Shown piece after piece: positions 2,311-43,400 of a DNA stretch of 64,000 bases; position 1 is the stretch's first letter; each line of letters begins with the position of its first letter. The notes beneath the pieces are model-generated. The model made no database searches. It was given only the letters and a program-made list of their open reading frames with translations, and was not told where the DNA came from. The DNA is from Cruorifilaria tuberocauda (Eukaryota; Nematoda; Chromadorea; Rhabditida; Onchocercidae). Both the position numbers and the translations under genes were made by a program. The DNA lies in the NCBI GenBank assembly GCA_013365365.1, contig JABVXU010000265.1:1-64000 (forward strand). Direction: 5' to 3'.

Positions 2311-2887
2311 CTTGAAGGTCCAAAACCCGTTCCTTCTTCTATCTTGCCAGATTCTCTATTAATAATTGATCCTTTAAATCGAATCGAGTGAATTAAATCT
2401 TCCTTCCGTTCATTTTAAAATATAATACAAAATGATTCGTTTAGCTTTCACAAAAACTTTTAATAATCATTCAATATTTCATTTTGTTATTTTCCATATG
2501 GCTGTTTTACTAAGAATCTTGAAATGTTTCTTTGTTTTATGAATTCCAGAAAAAGAATCATTTCATACATTTAACTTTCCAATATAAATAGAAATTTCTT
2601 CTAAATGCACTCTACTAAACTTTGATTTGGTTCTTAGATTTTTTCTGCATTTACATATCTCTCAATTATTTAGCTAGAAGTTTTCTATTCTAATCATTTG
2701 ATTGTAATTTGACTTAACTAATTAAGCATAAACAAGGGAAAAGTCATGCAAGGTTTCATAAAAAAATGACCTTGAAAAAGGTTCCAAACACTTTTTGCAG
2801 TCTTTTTGTTCCATCCTTGCAAAATTCGAAAAGAATTTTGAAAAATTTTAGGTATTGAACACGTAATCAGTTTTCGATTATCATTCA
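2311..2887 (+). repeat. Duplicated upstream (promoter-like) block, copy A
   Basis: This stretch is colinear and clearly similar to about 9713-10290 upstream of the intact mini-collagen gene. Shared landmarks include a segment with CAAAACC near 2320/9730, a GAATTCC segment near 2545/9930, the string TATAAATAG at 2583-2591 and 9961-9969, and a following stretch ending in a CATATC-like segment. The TATA-like string sits roughly 300-335 bp before the start codon in both copies, so it may be promoter DNA, although that distance is long for a simple TATA box. A third, shorter diverged copy lies near 8430-8600. Confidence 0.6.
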
Positions 2888-3240
2888 ATGTATATTCTCA
2901 GTAATTTGCTATTGTTGTCTGCTCTTTTTTCCTGCTTCAAGTCCAAGCTTCAGTTCTTTAATGGATTGTATTTAAGCCTGAAAGTAGCCTATAAAGAATG
3001 TATAAATTTTATTTTCAGGCTTGTCAACCACAAACAGAACTCAAAGGATGGAAGAGATGGCGAAAAAGGAGAGAGGGAAATACCGAGAGGATACAGGACC
3101 TCGAAAAATAATCGGAAAGCCTGGAGAGCGAGGAGTTGCAAGACAAAGGGTTTCCTGGACATCGAGGACCGCAAGGACCACGAGGTGAAGAAAGGCCGAA
3201 AGGAATGAAAAGGTCAGCAGGAGCAGGAGGACAGGAATAA
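2888..3240 (+). pseudogene. Mini-collagen pseudogene
   Basis: This is a degenerate paralogue of the gene at 10295-10696. A signal-peptide-like first exon starts at ATG 2888 (MYILSNLLLLSALFSC). Where the intact gene has the donor GTAAGT, this copy has GTCCAA. Exon 2 begins after TTTTCAG at 3019 and, like the intact gene, starts with Ala-Cys-X-Pro-Gln. The Gly-X-Y repeat is then spread over several frames: DGRDGEKGER in one, GPRKIIGKPGERG in another, and GHRGPQGPRGEE to a stop at 3238-3240. At least two frameshifts are required, and some Gly positions are lost. The broken donor plus frameshifts make a functional product unlikely. Confidence 0.75.
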
Positions 3241-6490: not shown

Positions 6491-7429
6491 ATGTATACAA
6501 AACTATAAATGACCCAAAAAATTCATTGACATCGAGAGTCGATTCCAGAGATCAAAATGTTATCACCGCAGTGATATGATTAGAAACTAATCAGCTCTCA
6601 TTCCATGAAACATTACTCATTTTATTCTGTCCCTTTCACAACTTCCCATTACCGCGAATCTTATCGACCATCGTGATAATTCAAATGCTCATCAGCTAAA
6701 TTAAAATCTTCATCAGCATATTAGGAGACTTTCTATTAAAATAATATTAATTTGATTAAATTTTACTTTTGAATTAGAAAGTATTTCAAATAGTTGCAAA
6801 TTATTATAAAATTGGAAAATTTGTTAATTTAAACTCGACCTTGAAGTAACTGTCTTGTATTACGAATGGAATTATGAAATCAGGATAATGGATTTAGCTT
6901 TAGTAAAATTAACTCTTCACATTTACTGGTCAATCCGATAGTGTCGCCGACATAATTTTACTTCGAATTAGTTGACATCTGTATCAGTTGACAACCATCA
7001 AATTTTTTATCTAATATGATATTGTATTGCCCTTAATGTGTTCTTCAGAGTATTTTCCGATCAGTCGGCCCTTTTTCTTCATTTCATGTATTTCTTTTTT
7101 GTTTCAATTCTTTTAATTAGTACTTCCGCTCACAATCAACAATCTGTTAATAATAATAATAATAAGGTTGTGATTTAAAAATATAATAAAGCATTTAATT
7201 CAAAAATGAACGTTTCTAATTCTAAGTAATTTCCGTAAATTTCTCGATCATGATTTCAAACTTATGAAATAGGAAGAACAGAAATGTGACAAATTGGTCA
7301 AAATAAAAGTAACACAGAGAACCGCTAAGCACTAGTAATCACCGATAAATTTACTGCTCATTGATATTGGCGATCTGAAATTGATCGATCGTCCCTCTAT
7401 TTGAATGGAATTTTCAAAATTTTCTGATC

Positions 7430-8990
7430 TCTGGGAATTTTGTAAAGGATGGGAGAATAGTTAGGGAGATATTTGATCTTTCAGAAGATCATTTCCATCG
7501 AGGGTCATAATTTTAAAATATTCTTCTGAAAAACTGAAGTGAATTAGATATGTGAGACAAATTTTTAGATTTTAAATGAAATTCAAGGAAGCTAATTTTA
7601 ACAAAAAGTTTTCCATTTATATTGAAAAGTTAGATGTTGATATGAATTATTCTGAATTATGGAACAAAGAAACATTTCAAGAATTCTTTACAGGTAATGA
7701 TCGTGTAGAATTGAACAAAAGCAATATTAAGCGATTATTAATGGTACCTGCGGAAGCTAACGGATCTTCTTAAGCGATAATTTTAAAATTTATCGACAAT
7801 TGATAGAGCATTCCGGAAGATGGGCAGGAAAACTTGTCTTGAACATTCAAGAATAAAAGTTGGGAATCTGATAATCTTCAATCGATTGATGACTCGACGA
7901 CAAGATCGATTATTCTTTAACAATGTCTTTGGTTTGTATAGCACATTAGCTTATTTGTATTCTTATAACCTCACTTAAATCTTCTAAATATGGTAAGCAA
8001 TTATTTTTATGCGAACTTTTTTGAATGATTTTCAGTGTTTATATTATTATATAATATGGAAAGAAATGAACGCAAAACATTTATTGAAGAATTCAAAATT
8101 CTGTCCCAGTCCCGACTACAATTTCAGGTTTACGGATTTTGCAACAAAATGGAAGACTGGAGTTCAAGACCAACGGGAAAATAAAAATGTTGCTACTGAG
8201 AAGTATTTTTTTCATCTTTGATAGCTTCTGTTATTGAAAAATCTTTTCCCTATGATGCTCTGCAAATCTTTTACCAGCAATCTCATTAGGATCAATTCCA
8301 TTCCTAAAGTAAAACCAAACTGCCTCAGGGTGATAACGCATAGTAGAATTTTCACTTACTTCAATTCTTTTCACTGCAGTAAGCAAATAATGATATTGGC
8401 CATATTCCTCACTTACTTTCATTTCCCAAAAATTTGAAACCTACTTTCCTATGTATCCTCCAGGATTCACTATCAAATGTTAGTCTTCTACTGACCGAAT
8501 CTTTCCTACATTTGAAATCATTGTTTGAAAAGATCCATTTAACTTCCTTGCTATTGTTAGTAGTCGTTTAAATTTTGCATTTCTGGAGTAGAATATCTGG
8601 TATGTATCATTTAGGAATTCATAAGACAAAGGAATATTTCAAAATTCTTCTCATCAAGTGCAACAAAATGAAACAATAAATTATTAGTGATGGTATCCAT
8701 GAAAGCTAAACGGATCGATTTATGCGATAATTCAAACTGAACAGAAGCTGAACGATTCGGTTGACTAATAGGAAATCAAGGTAATACACGAGATGTTGAA
8801 AAAGCAGGTTTTTTAGAGAAACAGAAGTGACTTGGATATCTGGCTGGTTTCTCTGGTATCATTTAGTAATAACTTCAGTGATACTTATAATTAATCATTC
8901 TTCAAGAATTTCTGAAATTCCAGAAATCTACAGTTCTCAGTAAACTTAAATAGAGATTAACTGTCCGAGCATACGAAACAACGGCTGCAG
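7430..8990 (+). repeat. Two diverged copies of a non-coding block
   Basis: The segment near 7740-7790 (GGTACCTGCGGAAGCTAACGG and a following GCGATAATT) recurs in diverged form near 8692-8745 (GAAAGCTAACGG-like, then GCGATAATT). In addition, 8430-8600 resembles the upstream blocks at 2311 and 9713. This supports repeated tandem duplication within the collagen locus. The open frame at 7576-7773 overlaps the first copy but shows no recognisable domain and is not conserved as a frame in the second. Confidence 0.45.
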
Positions 8991-9712
8991 CGTAGGAAAA
9001 AGTAACAGGAAAAAGCTTTTTTCAACAATTTTAGTAATTAAGTATATGGAAAAAGTAATGTATTCTTTTGGTTGAAAGCTTGCTTTACAGAAAACTCACT
9101 CAGCTATCATTTCTGATAGATCTTTGTTCTTTGAATAATCTCAGTTGCTTTCAAATCATTTTAAAATCGGTCGCACCACTAAATAGACTAAAAATTCAAT
9201 AGCTGTCAAATGATGTCACTCAACTACCAAACACTGATAATTTAATCACAATCGCAATAACAATATGGCCAATGTTACCAAGATAGCTTGTAAATCGAAT
9301 AGAATCAGGCAACTTAGCATAATGAAGGACAAAAGACCAAGTAAGACAACCACAATGAAAAGTTAAATAATGAACACTCATAAACCGATGAGAAGACGAA
9401 ATTGCACCGTATGAGAAGATATTATAACTATTATTTAATGCGCAAATGAGCAAATCTCATCCCAGCTTGCATTTAATGAAAGACAGTAAAGCTACGAAAT
9501 AAATCACGTTAAGTTTGAAGAAGAATATGTCGGAACCACTGCAGCAATTTCGAGTGAAGTCTTGAAAAGTACAAATATAGCCGATCCATATAGAGTCAAA
9601 TTTTACAGTGCTTATTAAAGTAAAATGTGCAGATAATTAACTGTGGAAAAATTTCATAGAACTTATATAAACTTGCAGATAACAGCCATCATTGAAATTG
9701 GCAACTCATTCT

Positions 9713-10290
9713 ATTTCTCGAAGATTCAAAACCTGTTTTCTTGCATCCATCTGGATTCTTTATCAGGATTAATCTTCTATCAGCCTACTGAACCTTCTTC
9801 TAATTCATGTTAGGCCATGACTTGAAGTTTCCATAAATACCGTCAATAATAGTTTAAATGTTATATTATGTTGTGTTCTGCCATTCCACAAAGAATTCCT
9901 GAAATGATTCTTTCTGTCGTGAATTCCGAAAAGATTCATATCAGAGATCTAACCTGTCAATATAAATAGAATATTTCTCCTTGAAATTCGCTTCATCAAA
10001 TTTTATTTAGGAATTAAAATTTTTTACTGCATATCCTTCAAAATCATAATTTCTCAGCCTGAATTTCGATATTTTAATTAATCAATATGATTTTCTGAAA
10101 ATATTGCAATCACCCAGATGAGATTTTTTGATTCGTTTTGAAGGATAATTTGATCAGAAAATTGTGAGCTATGAGAAGAAAAATCTGTTTGCTTGAATTT
10201 CGTGAGAACTTGAAAAAAATCAACATTTTTAAGCTTCAAAAATGAAATTTAAGGTATTTTAGCTATTGCACGCACAATTAATTTCAGATT
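9713..10290 (+). promoter_or_regulatory. Upstream region of the intact mini-collagen gene
   Basis: This is the duplicated counterpart of 2311-2887. It contains TATAAATAG at 9961-9969 and ends in an acceptor-like TTTCAG at 10282-10287, seven bases before the start codon. That site is well placed for spliced-leader trans-splicing, which is common in nematodes. The trans-splice role is inference from position only. Confidence 0.4.
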
Positions 10291-10294
10291 ATCT

Positions 10295-10696
10295 ATGCCA
10301 ATGCATTTTTTCAGTACTTTCCTGTTGGTTATTTGCACTTTTTTTGTGAGCCAAGTAAGTTTCCTGGTGGATTCTTTCTAAATTGGAAAATAAGTTTCCT
10401 GATGAATTGTTTCTAAATTGTGATTTCAAGCATTTTTTTAAATTACGAATGAATATTTTTAGGCTTGTAACCCTCAAGGTAGTGCAGTTAGAGGACCGCC
10501 AGGACGAGATGGACGTGATGGACCTCGAGGAGACAAAGGAAGACCTGGAGAGGAGGGACCTCCTGGGGACGAAGGTGTGGCTGGACCTCCTGGAGATGAA
10601 GGTCCACCAGGAGAGGAAGGAGAAGCGGGAGACCCTGGAGAAACGGGTGATGAAGGGCTGCTAGGTCCAAGAGGAATGAACGGAATGGGAGGATAA
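10295..10696 (+). CDS. Small secreted collagen-like protein (mini-collagen), intact
   Basis: Two exons, 10295-10354 and 10463-10696, joined in phase 0 by a 108-bp intron (GTAAGT to TTTTTAG), encode 97 residues. Exon 1 is a signal peptide (MPMHFFSTFLLVICTFFVSQ). The predicted mature protein starts Ala-Cys-Asn-Pro-Gln, with the only mature cysteine, and then runs as about 22 uninterrupted Gly-X-Y triplets to the C-terminus, ending GMNGMGG. The helix is Arg/Lys-rich at its start and Glu/Asp-rich in the middle. It lacks the features of nematode cuticle collagens (about 300 residues, N-terminal conserved blocks, furin-like site, cysteine clusters between Gly-X-Y domains). It is probably secreted and trimerising; the single cysteine could link chains. 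Role unknown (sheath, eggshell or host-facing are guesses). The ATG at 10301 is an alternative in-frame start. Confidence 0.85.
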
Positions 10697-11740
10697 AAAC
10701 AAAAGACAATGAAATGAAATATCGAAGCAGTCACTCTCAATGATATCATTCTGTTATTTTGTTGTTTTTGTTTTCACAAATCATTGATCTGCTCCTTCAA
10801 TGGTATCAAACCTGAAATCGTTTTCGGTACTTTTCTTTATGGCTGTACGATTCCGATTCATTTTTCACACATTTACGCCAATACGATCAGCTTTTAACTA
10901 AAAAAGAAATTTGAGCAATACGAAAAGCTTGGAAGCTTGAAAACAATAACATCTTACTGCTTTTTATGCAACGCAAACTGTGCAATCAATTCGTTTGTTT
11001 GCTCGCCAAAGTACAATTGTCGTACCAGTTTCCTCACGGAGTAATTACTTCGATAGATCCTATTTTTCACTTTTATTATAAAATAATTTATTGTTACCTT
11101 TATTACCTAACCTTTTCCATTTTAATTTTCAAATTTAATCATCTCAGCTTTAACAGCGTTGGTCAGTCTGAAAACTTGCTGATCACAATTATTTAACTTT
11201 TCATTGTGATATAATCCATGTTACATTCATTCTGTGATGCACTTTTCAAATCAATTGTCGTTTCAATGAATTCATTTTTCCGATTATTTAGTTCCTTAAC
11301 TTTGTTTCCATATATTACTCTTTTATTTTAATTTGTTTAAACTAACATATCTTTCCTCATCCACTCAGCGTTTGAGCCAGTAACACCTTCTTCCAATACT
11401 CTTCGTTCCTTCCATAATGATCCTTTTTATTATATTGCCATTTTCATTATCAGTTTTTCTTTTCAAAAGGTAAAACACAATTTCCTTTGTCCTGTCACGA
11501 ACGTTTTTTGAATGGGTTTCATGGACAAATTATTTATTTGAGTTTGACTGGACACCGTCGAATTACATTTGAAAGAAAATTCATTTGCTTCTGGTCGTAC
11601 AGCTTGACACCAATGCTTTATTCAGAACTGATAGTAACAGCAATCAGTAAGGAATGATAATCATTCCTTACTCTTGTGCAATCGTAAGTCATGATCCTAG
11701 GTCAACAAATACAAATTCCCGATAAACTTTTGTTCAATCG
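10697..11740 (+). repeat. 3' flank of the intact mini-collagen gene
   Basis: Non-coding flank holding the 43-bp element (10993-11035) shared with the window edge and a block near 11285-11370 shared with 3490-3590. No obvious AATAAA lies immediately after the stop. Confidence 0.55.
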
Positions 11741-32508: not shown

Positions 32509-35500
32509 TTAAGCTTCATTTCCTTTAGATCTATTTGATTTAGCTTTGTCTGATATTCCGGTTGAAACTGTATGATTAAGTTTCTTGTTCTCTGTTCTCT
32601 CTATCACTTCCGATTTTCGCTCTTCCTTTAGTTTTAGTTTATTGTCGTTGATCGATCGTTGTTTATAATTATCGACCTGTTCTCCTCCTCCGCTAGGACG
32701 TACTTCGATGTTTTCTTCGGACGACGACTCTGAACTGAACGGTCTTTCTTTGCTTCCTCCACCACTCTGAAATAACTAGATTTTTCATTAAAAAAGTGGG
32801 TAAAACCAAAGGAAATTAATAGTTAAGTAGCTTAAGTTAAGTCATGTCATAATTAACCTTTAGGAAATTTCCGTTTTAAACTTTCTTCTAGTTGCAGTAG
32901 GATACCAAAATGCATTCATCAAGACCTTCTAGAAGTTGCAAAGGCTAAAAGAATCTTATAACAGAATGGCCTTAAACATAAATCTGTCTAAGGAAAGCGA
33001 CCTTGTTTTTCTGGAGTCATTCTTTCGACGAATTACTAGAAGAATCTGTCGGATGAATAGAAGTTGAACTTATTGCTACGACTTTTCCAGTGTGTCCCTT
33101 TCTTTTTTAAAAATATGCCAAGTGTATTATAGATAATTTGAACAGTGATTAATGCTGGCTTGTGAAGTGACTGGGTAGTCGTGAGATGATGATAGGATAC
33201 AGCGTGCAAAAATACTCCCGTGTTCTTTGCATAATGGTAATACATATTTCTGGAGAGCCACAAATTTTCAGAAGTACAATGGGAGGTAGAATGCTAAACG
33301 AAATTATATAATCATGGATTTGGAAGAGTGATAACTACCTTATCGCTAGATCGATAACATAGCGTATAGAATTTAGCTGGGCATCCATCGTTTTTATATT
33401 CAGCTACAAAATATGTGCAAACACAGTTGGGATCTTTTGATGAACCTTCCACACTTTGTCCACAACTTCGATCTGTTTTCTCATGTGCCATTGAATCCAG
33501 CAACGGATTAAGTGGCGGACAGCGGCTTGCCTAAGGTTTCATTTTTATTCTATCCTTTATCAATATGAAAGATACAAATTGATTCAAATAGTATAAATAT
33601 TAGATACTGGGTATTAATTGTCTAGGTGGTATAACTATAATAAGATTGGACCTGAATAATGGATGTCTGAATAATTTTGCAATATTTGGTTAAAAGTAAT
33701 TTGGTTTTGATAAAAGAGAAGTATTTGATGGTAAACACTTCTTTTTACCATTGGATTGTTTAAATACGCTTTTTTTCTGCGCTTCTTTTTCAGTGCCTTC
33801 TGTATAGCTATTTTGTGATTGAACCTCATTAATCGGTTTTATTTTTGATTCCGCTCCATAACCCAACATCGCTTCGGCGCTATCATGTGATGAGATCGAC
33901 GGATTCTCTGGCGCTTCAGGAATGCTTTCAGTGGGACTTGGCGATTGAGGTTGATAACCGGATGACGGTGTTTTCAAATTATCTTCATAGCCTGTCGGTG
34001 ATATATTAGGCTGACTGGACTGAGATGATGGAGATGATGGTGGAGGAATTCTTTCAGTGGGATTTTCTGATTGAGATTCATAACCGAGCGGCGTTCCTGA
34101 CTGAGGTTCATAGCTATGCGGCGTTCCTGGTTGAGGTTGAGAGATGGATGGTGTCCCCGGTTGAGGAGAGACGGATGGCGTTCCTGACTGAGATTCATAA
34201 CCGGGTGGCGTTCCTGGTTGAATTTCATTGCCAAATAACGTTTCCGGTTGAGGTTGAGAAATGGATGGCATCCCCGGCTGAAATTGAGAGATTGATGGCG
34301 TTCCTGATTGAAGTTCATAACCAGTTGAAGTTTTTGGCTGAAACTGAACACCGGATGGCGCTCCTGGTTGAGGTCCAGAAATGGATGACGCTCCTAGTTG
34401 AGGTCCAGAAGTAGGTGGAGCTCCTAGTTGAGGTCCAGAAGTAGGTGGCGCCCCCGGTTGGAGTCCAGAAATGGATGGCGCTTCTGGTTGAAGTCCAGAA
34501 ATGGATGGCGCTTCTGGTTGAAGTCCAGAAATGGATGGCGCTTCTGGTTGAAGTCCAGAAATGGATGGCGCTCCTGGTTGAGGTCCAGAAATGAATGGCG
34601 CTCCTGGTCGAGGTCCAGAAGTAGGTGGAGTTCCTGGTTGAGGTCCAGAAATGGATGGCGCTCCTAGTTGAGGTCCAGAAGTAGGTGGCGCCCCTGGTTG
34701 AAGTCCAGAAATGAATAGCACTCCTGATTGAGGTTGATAACTGGATGGTATTCTAGATTGAGACTGATAATTGGGTACTGGCAAACCGACAACATATTTT
34801 GCTACATTAGGCTGATTAGGTTTAGCGTATGATGATATCATGTGAGTTGAACGGTATACCTTATGTTGTTTATCATTCAATGAGAGTGACTTTTCCTTTG
34901 GATTGCTTGGTTCTCTTTTAAAATTATGGAAATTTTTTTCAATTTTTTTAGATAATTTAAAATAATGAGTAGCTGTATAAAGAGGAATCGGTCTTTTTAC
35001 CAATTTGCTGGAACTTTTTTGAAGGTTCGTTTCAAATGGCCGAGATTTCACTTTATAATCAGAGGTTGAATCAGATTTGAAATCAGAATTCTGTTGGTAA
35101 GCTGATAGCGAATCATCTATATTTCTTTGTTTAACAACCGCTTTTGTCTCCTGTTTATCTTCAATCGTCCTTCTGTCTTTGGTAGATGAATTTGCTTCCA
35201 GAAGTGTCAAGACACGACTGGAGCTGAGCTGTCCATTACGAACGATCCATTTTGAAGAAGCATTTTCCCTTATCCCATCTCTTACTGCCCCAGACTTCAA
35301 TTTCAAGTCTATTACTTCTGAAAAACTTTTCATATTTTCAGAGTCTATTAGGATTAATGAGAGAGAGATAATAGCAGTAATATGACAGTAATAATTCAAT
35401 AAAAATAGTATTTATGTATACAACATCTATATATAACAACTTTTAATTTAATTGTTGATACCTACCATTTTGCCTAAGTTGTGAGCCTGAACTAACATGT

Positions 35501-40400: not shown

Positions 40401-43400
40401 CTTAAATGATTACTCGTACGAAACACTGTGTTGCTTGCTCACACAAACCGGCACTAAGGAAAATTTCACCAATTTCCTGCAATTAAAAATTTTAAATCCT
40501 TATCAACAAGTGTGATAGCGACACTAAAAAAATTGTTGATAGAAATTTAATCTAAATCAAACTTTATTTTCCTCTGATTACTCTAATCATATTTTATTAC
40601 TTTAAAATAATTTCGATTCCATAGGAAGAAAACTGACGAAATTAATGAGTACTTTTCTGCCGACTACTAAGAAAAGATTCCGGATAATTGCTAATTAGTA
40701 TTTAACTAATTAAATTACATATTTAGAAATTGTGGGCTGAAGCTGATAATATTTAAAATTTACCGCGATAAGTTTGTCTCCATCGGGCAAACGTTTTGCC
40801 AATGATTCCATACTGTCATAATTATCATTCATTAGATAGCATCGAATCAATTGCTTGTGATTTTCTCCTTTCTCGTAATAACTTTGCGCTTGTTTCCTGA
40901 AATGAATTTATCATTCCAAAAACAAATTCTTGTCAAAAATCAATATATCATTTTATCATATTGAAATAATAAATAACCATATTGAAAGGTTTTATCACAT
41001 CAAATATTGCTAGCTTAAAGAATGATAAATTTCAAGTTTGATCACCGAGATGTCATGATATGTTGAATCTAATTAAATTCAAGAAAATTTCATCATCATC
41101 GTTATCATACCACTTTTGACGTTCAGCATAATAATCACCGACATGATTCCATGCCTTCTTCAATAATTGATCATCACCCGGTTGTCTGCTTTTTTGTAAA
41201 ATTTCCGCGATTCGAAACCAATCATTCATTTTTTTTCTAAGTTCAATTGCTAAATCACGTCGATCATTTTCCATATAAATTTTTTCCGCCTCGTCGATAT
41301 GCCCATAAAATGTTGCAACTTCAGCCTTTTTAAAGCCATCATGCTAGGAATATTTACAATAAAAATGGTGGAATTTTATTTTTTCTACAATAATTTTAGA
41401 TGACAAACGGTCTGAGATGCTGTGAGAAGATAAATTAGCAATAAATAGACAACTTTGTAATAATTATAATATGATATATTTACTTGTAAAGCATTTATCC
41501 GTTTGATAAGTTGTATTCCGGCATAATCTTTCAACATGACGAATGCATGTTCCGCAACAACTGTATCCAGACGATTTAATGCTACCTCAGCTAACAATGC
41601 CCATAATTTGGGATGATTATTTTTTTCGATAAATGCTGTTGCTTCTTGAATTTTCATCTTCTCTAATAAACTTTTCACGTTTCGAAGTAACTAAAGAAAT
41701 CTATCAAAAATATACTTTAAGGACTCGAATTTCTATTAAACAAAGCTAACAGACAGCTTTGATTCTCTGTGCCAAAACGAGAAGCTTCAACAATTGCAAA
41801 TTTATTTTCATTTCAATGGCTTTATTTCATCAGTGATTAGAATAGAAGTTAGGCACTCTTAAATTATTACAGTACCTTGATTTCGACGTCAATGATGAAA
41901 GATTTATGCGGCGTTTCAGGATTTTTCATCAATTCATCGAGCAGTACGGTACGGACAACAAGATTCTTGAAAGAGCAAATGTAGCCATTGTTGACAATCG
42001 GTTCTTCAGTTTCTTTATTTCGTACAACGTAGAGTCTCGTTTTTTCCATTACCGCTATCGTATCATCCTTCTCCTCAAATACAATTAATTAAAACGTGAT
42101 TCCAGTAATGTGGTATGTAGCCAAGGTTTATTCTTTCACACTCAGTTTTACATGTATTCATTTAATGTACTTAAATTTAATGCTAATTTACACGAGTATC
42201 ACTGATTAAGGACAAGTATTTATTAGTATTTGATAGAAAACAATCAGTAATCGATAAGTTTACTGCAATTCTGGTCAATTGTGAATACGAAAAAAGATTT
42301 CGGTCTGGAAGAAACATACATGGTGATCAGAGGTCGGTTAAAATTTTCAATTTTTGCTCAAACAATCTAATTTAAATAAGTAGTACTTAAACACATTTTC
42401 GGAATTCGTTTCGAATAAAAGTGAATTTTCGGCGAAAACAATCTATCACTAGATATTATATATCTTTTTTGTTCTTATTTTCTCATTTCGAATTTGAAAA
42501 TTATTTTAAAATTGTATCTTTTACCGAATCCCATTTAATATTCCAAACATCATTTCGCTCAAGATACAATGATAGTACGGTATTATCGCGTAATTCAAAT
42601 AATTTTAATCCTTTTGCAGTAAGTGCAGCCAATCGTGTTCCATTACAGTTCAATTCCAGCTTTTCCGTACGACAACCCAAATTAAGAGTTGATTGCAGTG
42701 TTACTTCTGGTAGTGAGTAATAATTAGCCATTCCAGAATTTCGACACTGCAATTATTCCTTTTTCTTTAAATGATAATTTCACGTCTTCTGTTATTAGTA
42801 CACGTAGTTTGCGTCACACTTTTATCATATTATTAGGAGTAAATTTTTGATTAAAAAACTTACAACCAGAAAGAAGTTTTTCGAGATTCCAATTGCACAT
42901 ATTTCATCTTTAAATTGCTGAAATAAATTTTGAGCAATGATCGAGTAAAATAATTTTTTTTAGCGAAGAATCATAAAATCCCGCATATCTCCTTGCTAAT
43001 TAACTTAATAGGTGAGCAAGGGATTAAGAATGCTGCATTATTAAAATGTTTCCGATAAAATACAAAACTTTTAATACTTGAGATTTTTTTCGCATAAGAT
43101 TCAAAGAAGTTTTATCGATTTCGTCAGTTTCATCAATAAAGTGTAATCTGAAATTTTGTTAACACTGTGAAATTTATTAAAACAAGGTTAAATTGAATGG
43201 AGATTGAATATTTATTGAAAGTATTGAAGAAATCAGATTCTATTTTCAATCAAAAAAGTAAGAAATAATTACTTTTGATCATTTTGAACTGAATTATCAG
43301 CACTTAAATTAATTGCTGCACGATTTGTCGCACACGGAATGTTATACTGCCAAATAGTGAATGATAAATTATTTGCGATGACAACTTCAGAATCATTCAT

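Follow-up and report, generated by a model that had tools for sequence, protein, structure and literature searches.

Small secreted collagens have already been described from filarial nematodes. The O. volvulus protein OVOC12404 has 98 aa, consists of a signal peptide plus Gly-X-Y repeats and shows a banded distribution on the surface of microfilariae; according to the accessible text of the study, it is the most abundant microfilaria-specific protein in that set, has no close homologue known outside Onchocerca and is under trial as a diagnostic antigen (Greene et al. 2025, PMC12403327). OVOC12404, Ovcol-1 and OVOC12544 are grouped there as 'mini-chain collagens', a name that Greene et al. credit to Stewart 1997, and are marked by a smaller N-terminal domain and an uninterrupted helix (PMC12403327). 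Bmcol-2 has been termed a homologue of Ovcol-1 (PMC2708187). In O. ochengi, non-orthologous proteins are enriched in collagens, especially those present in intrauterine microfilariae only, and the accessible text does not state these to be mini-chain collagens (PMC4974336).

The window analysed here, a stretch of 64,000 nucleotides from Cruorifilaria tuberocauda (contig JABVXU010000265.1), contains a gene of the same plan: a small secreted chain of about 100 aa (95-97 aa, with a signal peptide recognised by eye), in which a small non-helical N-terminus of 10 residues is followed by an uninterrupted helix of 22 triplets. The published accounts, as far as their accessible text goes, give mini-chain collagens just these parts, and the 98 aa of OVOC12404 come close to the length of the window chain, a likeness in published plan and length. 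Because this plan is already in print for filarial mini-chain collagens, the product does not represent a novel protein type. Judged on its sequence, the window gene is most likely another member of the published family, and we hold it very probable that its product is a chain of this type.

Cnidarian minicollagens resemble the window chain in that a signal peptide is followed by a very short collagen helix. They differ from it in their long polyproline stretches and many cysteines (PMC4699822), whereas the window chain has no polyproline and one cysteine in its collagen exon. Among the matches listed in a literature search on nematode minicollagens, cnidarian work was the sole result. A protein database search gave 11 matches at E<=0.01 (best E 2.8e-6); all 11 were inspected, were driven by Gly-X-Y and included no recognisable orthologue, in a database whose filarial coverage is uncertain. 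One of them, P0007 (119 aa), likewise begins with a leader-like stretch ahead of the repeat; it differs in its additional cysteines and non-collagen tail. The phage collection gave no match to the window protein, and sequence matches in the PDB were generic collagens and collagen peptides.

The model of leader exon, intron and collagen exon holds and looks like a real gene (Table 1). The collagen exon has 77 codons plus a stop, and a Pfam scan of the window protein gave Collagen (PF01391, E 1.6e-10) as its sole match. Elsewhere in the window the longest Gly-X-Y run is 5 triplets, compared to 22 in the gene, and in base-shuffled windows (n=10) it never exceeds 3. The first-pass annotation had described two exons, a signal peptide, the motif Ala-Cys-X-Pro-Gln and about 22 Gly-X-Y triplets, all of which exon reading and triplet count bear out. 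Its 97-residue product stands as to the gene and not as to the start: read from the ATG at 10295, exon 1 is MPMHFFSTFLLVICTFFVSQ, but the ATG of the paralogues aligns with the second one, at 10301, so that 95 residues are the likelier product and translation probably does not begin at 10295. The leader, which holds a Cys of its own besides the single one of the collagen exon, is predicted to be a signal peptide from its hydrophobicity, judged by eye, and is common to the paralogues. From the conserved gene structure we infer splicing of 10354 to 10463. In two paralogues (L014 and L015), which lack the intron, leader and collagen form one continuous frame, in support of this junction.

Table 1. 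Features of the window gene and of decayed relatives in the window.
Feature	Position	Strand	Basis
Remnant of a decayed family member, contig start	1..470	+	BLAST match only at 131-234; rest by eye
Broken family copy, frame lost, upstream element included	2387..3240	+	Alignment to L036; reading frames
Relic upstream element	7505..7787	-	BLAST; apparent decayed leader exon near 7380 (by eye)
Further decayed family piece	8446..8545	+	
Relic upstream element, not followed by any recognised gene or remnant	8573..8779	-	BLAST
Conserved upstream element, likely promoter	9881..10003	+	BLAST against family 5' flanks; genome matches
TATAAAT inside the upstream element	9961-9967	+	
TTTCAG, likely spliced-leader (trans-splice) acceptor	10282..10287	+	Conserved near ATG; predicted
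Exon 1, read from the start codon shared with paralogues; leader MHFFSTFLLVICTFFVSQ	10301..10354	+	Paralogue comparison
Intron, phase 0, GTAAGT...TTTTAG, 108 nt	10355..10462	+	Same place in 18/20 leader-bearing members
Exon 2: ACNPQGSAVR, 22 Gly-X-Y triplets, final Gly, TAA at 10694-10696	10463..10696	+	Reading frame; PF01391
Codon of the collagen exon's single cysteine	10466..10468	+	Invariant in 15-member alignment
Helix of 22 Gly-X-Y triplets without interruption, strongly acidic in the middle	10493..10690	+	Triplet count; charge count

The gene belongs to a large family, which the first-pass annotation overlooked together with the decayed relatives in the same window. We probed the 71.7-Mb genome with the window protein, PF01391 and three paralogues, and added fetched regions; at least 21 intact-looking genes of the leader-plus-helix plan were found, the window gene included. 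This figure is a lower bound, since the PF01391 search scored 150 of 312 candidates and not every match was fetched. Leader exons were identified in 20 of these genes (L032, at the end of contig C255, shows the collagen exon alone), and all leader-bearing members except the two intronless ones carry the intron at the equivalent place. Every one of the 21 has exactly one Cys in its collagen exon, although the leaders of some also contain one. In an alignment of 15 members, the Cys is invariant and the preceding Ala nearly so (one Thr), as are 21 of the 22 helix-glycine columns of the window chain; the closest paralogue of the window protein in this alignment shares 56% identity with it. Candidates on C776, C207, C1 and C269 were left out of the count, and so were L024, L028, L033, L034, L037, L038 and a truncated second copy at the start of C277. 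In the mostly open-access literature searched, we found no paper giving the number of mini-collagen genes per genome. The census, the corrected start, a shared promoter-like element, the local relics and an extreme acidity are what this analysis adds, and a genome-wide family with a common leader, a single cysteine and one upstream element offers a handle for finding small two-exon genes of this sort and annotating them correctly.

The upstream element was seen from a genome search with the 271-base stretch 9830-10100, which gave at least 13 matches, itself included. The 12 non-self matches listed fall at 11 genes or relics, all of them 5' of a family gene or relic and in the correct orientation (the one on the minus strand of C522 precedes a decayed leader). 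This search was not exhaustive, and weaker copies that it missed were recovered by local BLAST: 12 of 17 other members matched at E<=1e-6 and 16 of 17 at E<=1e-4, the exception being the member on C137, in a set that leaves out the members on C93, C346 and C255 (contig ends, short 5' flank). A control stretch adjoining the element (9300-9570) had no match in the genome beyond itself, and a control from the 3' flank matched only itself and 38 bases at the window start. These 38 bases are identical at 1-38 and 10993-11030, 300 bases 3' of the gene, and are perhaps an old duplication or an assembly edge. Of 18 members, 11 carry the motif TATAAAT in the aligned position or close to it, and the other 7 show a variant with one base changed, such as TATAAGT, or nothing of the kind; across the window TATAAA plus one base turns up roughly every kilobase in any case. 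TTTCAG is found no more than 40 nt from the ATG in 16 of 18 members, and the genome holds 43 exact copies of the SL1 22-mer (control 0). We infer that the region upstream of the gene is made of promoter, outron and trans-splice site, with transcription presumably driven by the shared element and trans-splicing at about 10288. Our search of mostly open-access literature turned up no paper on a shared upstream element of mini-collagen genes.

Canonical nematode cuticle collagens are secreted by the epidermis. They are likewise secreted Gly-X-Y proteins and occur in the same genome, some with cysteine clusters, whereas the window chain is only about 95 residues long and has no Col_cuticle_N domain, no cysteine clusters and no interruptions. 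Col_cuticle_N (PF01484) was found in none of the 15 family members scanned and at 46 other places in the genome. None of these lies on the window's contig, and a single one shares a contig with a family gene, from which it is 9.6 kb away; several family genes sit near contig ends, which leaves short flanks for this distance test. The absence of cuticle-collagen domains proposed in the first-pass annotation is hence upheld, by the PF01484 scan and by the single Cys of the collagen exon.

These data bear on another reading, in which exon 2 would close a longer cuticle collagen of the ordinary type and the exons before it have gone unrecognised. The TTTCAG before the leader could in principle act as a cis-splice acceptor, and the conserved upstream block could conceivably hold a short exon. 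Yet in each of 13 aligned copies of this block (215-275 bases) none of the six frames is free of stops, and a coding exon there is not supported. The intronless paralogues moreover carry leader plus helix in a single frame, the window has no other long Gly-X-Y run, and there is no PF01484 on the window contig or within 9 kb of a family gene, several of these genes being near contig ends. We regard a larger collagen as very improbable. The chain proposed from the outset, a free-standing minimal triple helix with one mature Cys, has instead gained 20 further paralogues (two of them intronless), the upstream element and the lack of PF01484 in its favour.

The acidic middle of the helix, also noted in the first pass, is confirmed by counting: in a stretch of 36 residues, 13 are acidic and none is basic. 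Among the 21 chains, that of the window is the acidic extreme (net -9, middle block -13), and L027, with a net charge of +11, the basic one. The mature window chain has a computed mass of 7.36 kDa and a pI of 4.18, before hydroxylation, and contains no Tyr, Trp or Phe; Tyr is absent from 16 of the 21 members. Tyrosine cross-links are usual in the nematode cuticle, and for lack of Tyr they are not open to this chain. The chain would be secreted, presumably by the epidermis like the cuticle collagens, and would trimerise. The single cysteine of the collagen exon stands at the predicted mature N-terminus or next to it. With one cysteine per chain an odd thiol is left per trimer, and disulfides could therefore link trimers together. 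The middle block, with acidic but no basic residues, would repel itself in a homotrimer at neutral pH; more basic sister chains, or cations, seem the likelier partners, and we put forward heterotrimer assembly as a tentative possibility.

As for function, likeness to the O. volvulus relatives speaks somewhat in favour of a role at the surface or in the cuticle, where the chain would probably form part of the coat or cuticle of microfilariae or larvae. The earlier proposal of a lineage-specific sheath, eggshell or host-interface component is plausible, and is already in print for relatives. A different reading makes the product non-structural, a secreted acidic rod shed into host tissue as a soluble host-interface ligand. 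The accessible text on OVOC12404 speaks for it by describing a halo of OVOC12404 staining around free microfilariae, ascribed to secreted or shed protein, and against it by reading the banded surface pattern as cuticle in the same study (PMC12403327); we think a soluble ligand rather unlikely. One may go as far as to picture at least 21 single-cysteine mini-collagens, regulated together behind one upstream element, with charges from -9 to +11 (L027), that form charge-complementary heterotrimers and build a combinatorial surface coat with turnover by gene birth and death. This full picture is speculative and its odds are poor. The family itself lays the idea that its genes are co-expressed, and their chains assembled into heterotrimers at a parasite surface, open to test.

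Sequence divergence within the family points to weak constraint outside the glycines. For the window's collagen exon against five paralogues, dN/dS was 0.31-0.69, which counts in favour of the gene; after removal of shared glycines it was 0.55-0.74 against L010, L012 and L013, where unsaturated, and saturated otherwise. The pairs L036/L047 and L020/L032 gave 0.83 and 1.18 without glycines. All these figures are rough, because synonymous distances are high and imprecise. They suggest that the helix glycines are kept and that X and Y positions drift, and selection on the window copy may have relaxed.

At least four decayed relics of the family lie within the first 10.7 kb of the window (Table 1), which fits gene birth and death in the mini-collagen family. 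One of them, the broken copy at 2387-3240, is closest to L036, a gene on C23, with 71% identity over 888 aligned bases. With such relics in the same 10.7 kb, loss of function of the window copy has to be kept in mind: it might be a recent or imminent pseudogene, unexpressed and with a frame open by chance. Besides the relics themselves, its extreme charge, the weak constraint at X and Y positions and the additional ATG at 10295, absent from the relatives, would agree with this. However, the 22 helix glycines, the splice sites, the leader, the Cys, the stop and the upstream element are all intact, whereas the relic at 2387-3240 has no frame left. On balance a pseudogene appears improbable.

Some further open frames were seen in the window. 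On the minus strand, open stretches at 8231-8775 look protein-like by eye and overlap one of the upstream-element relics; no Pfam family matched them above the cut-off. A frame of 573 codons at 33693-35411 (-) seemingly includes a repetitive stretch. Open frames at 41056-41690 (-) may resemble the intraflagellar transport protein WDR35/IFT121.
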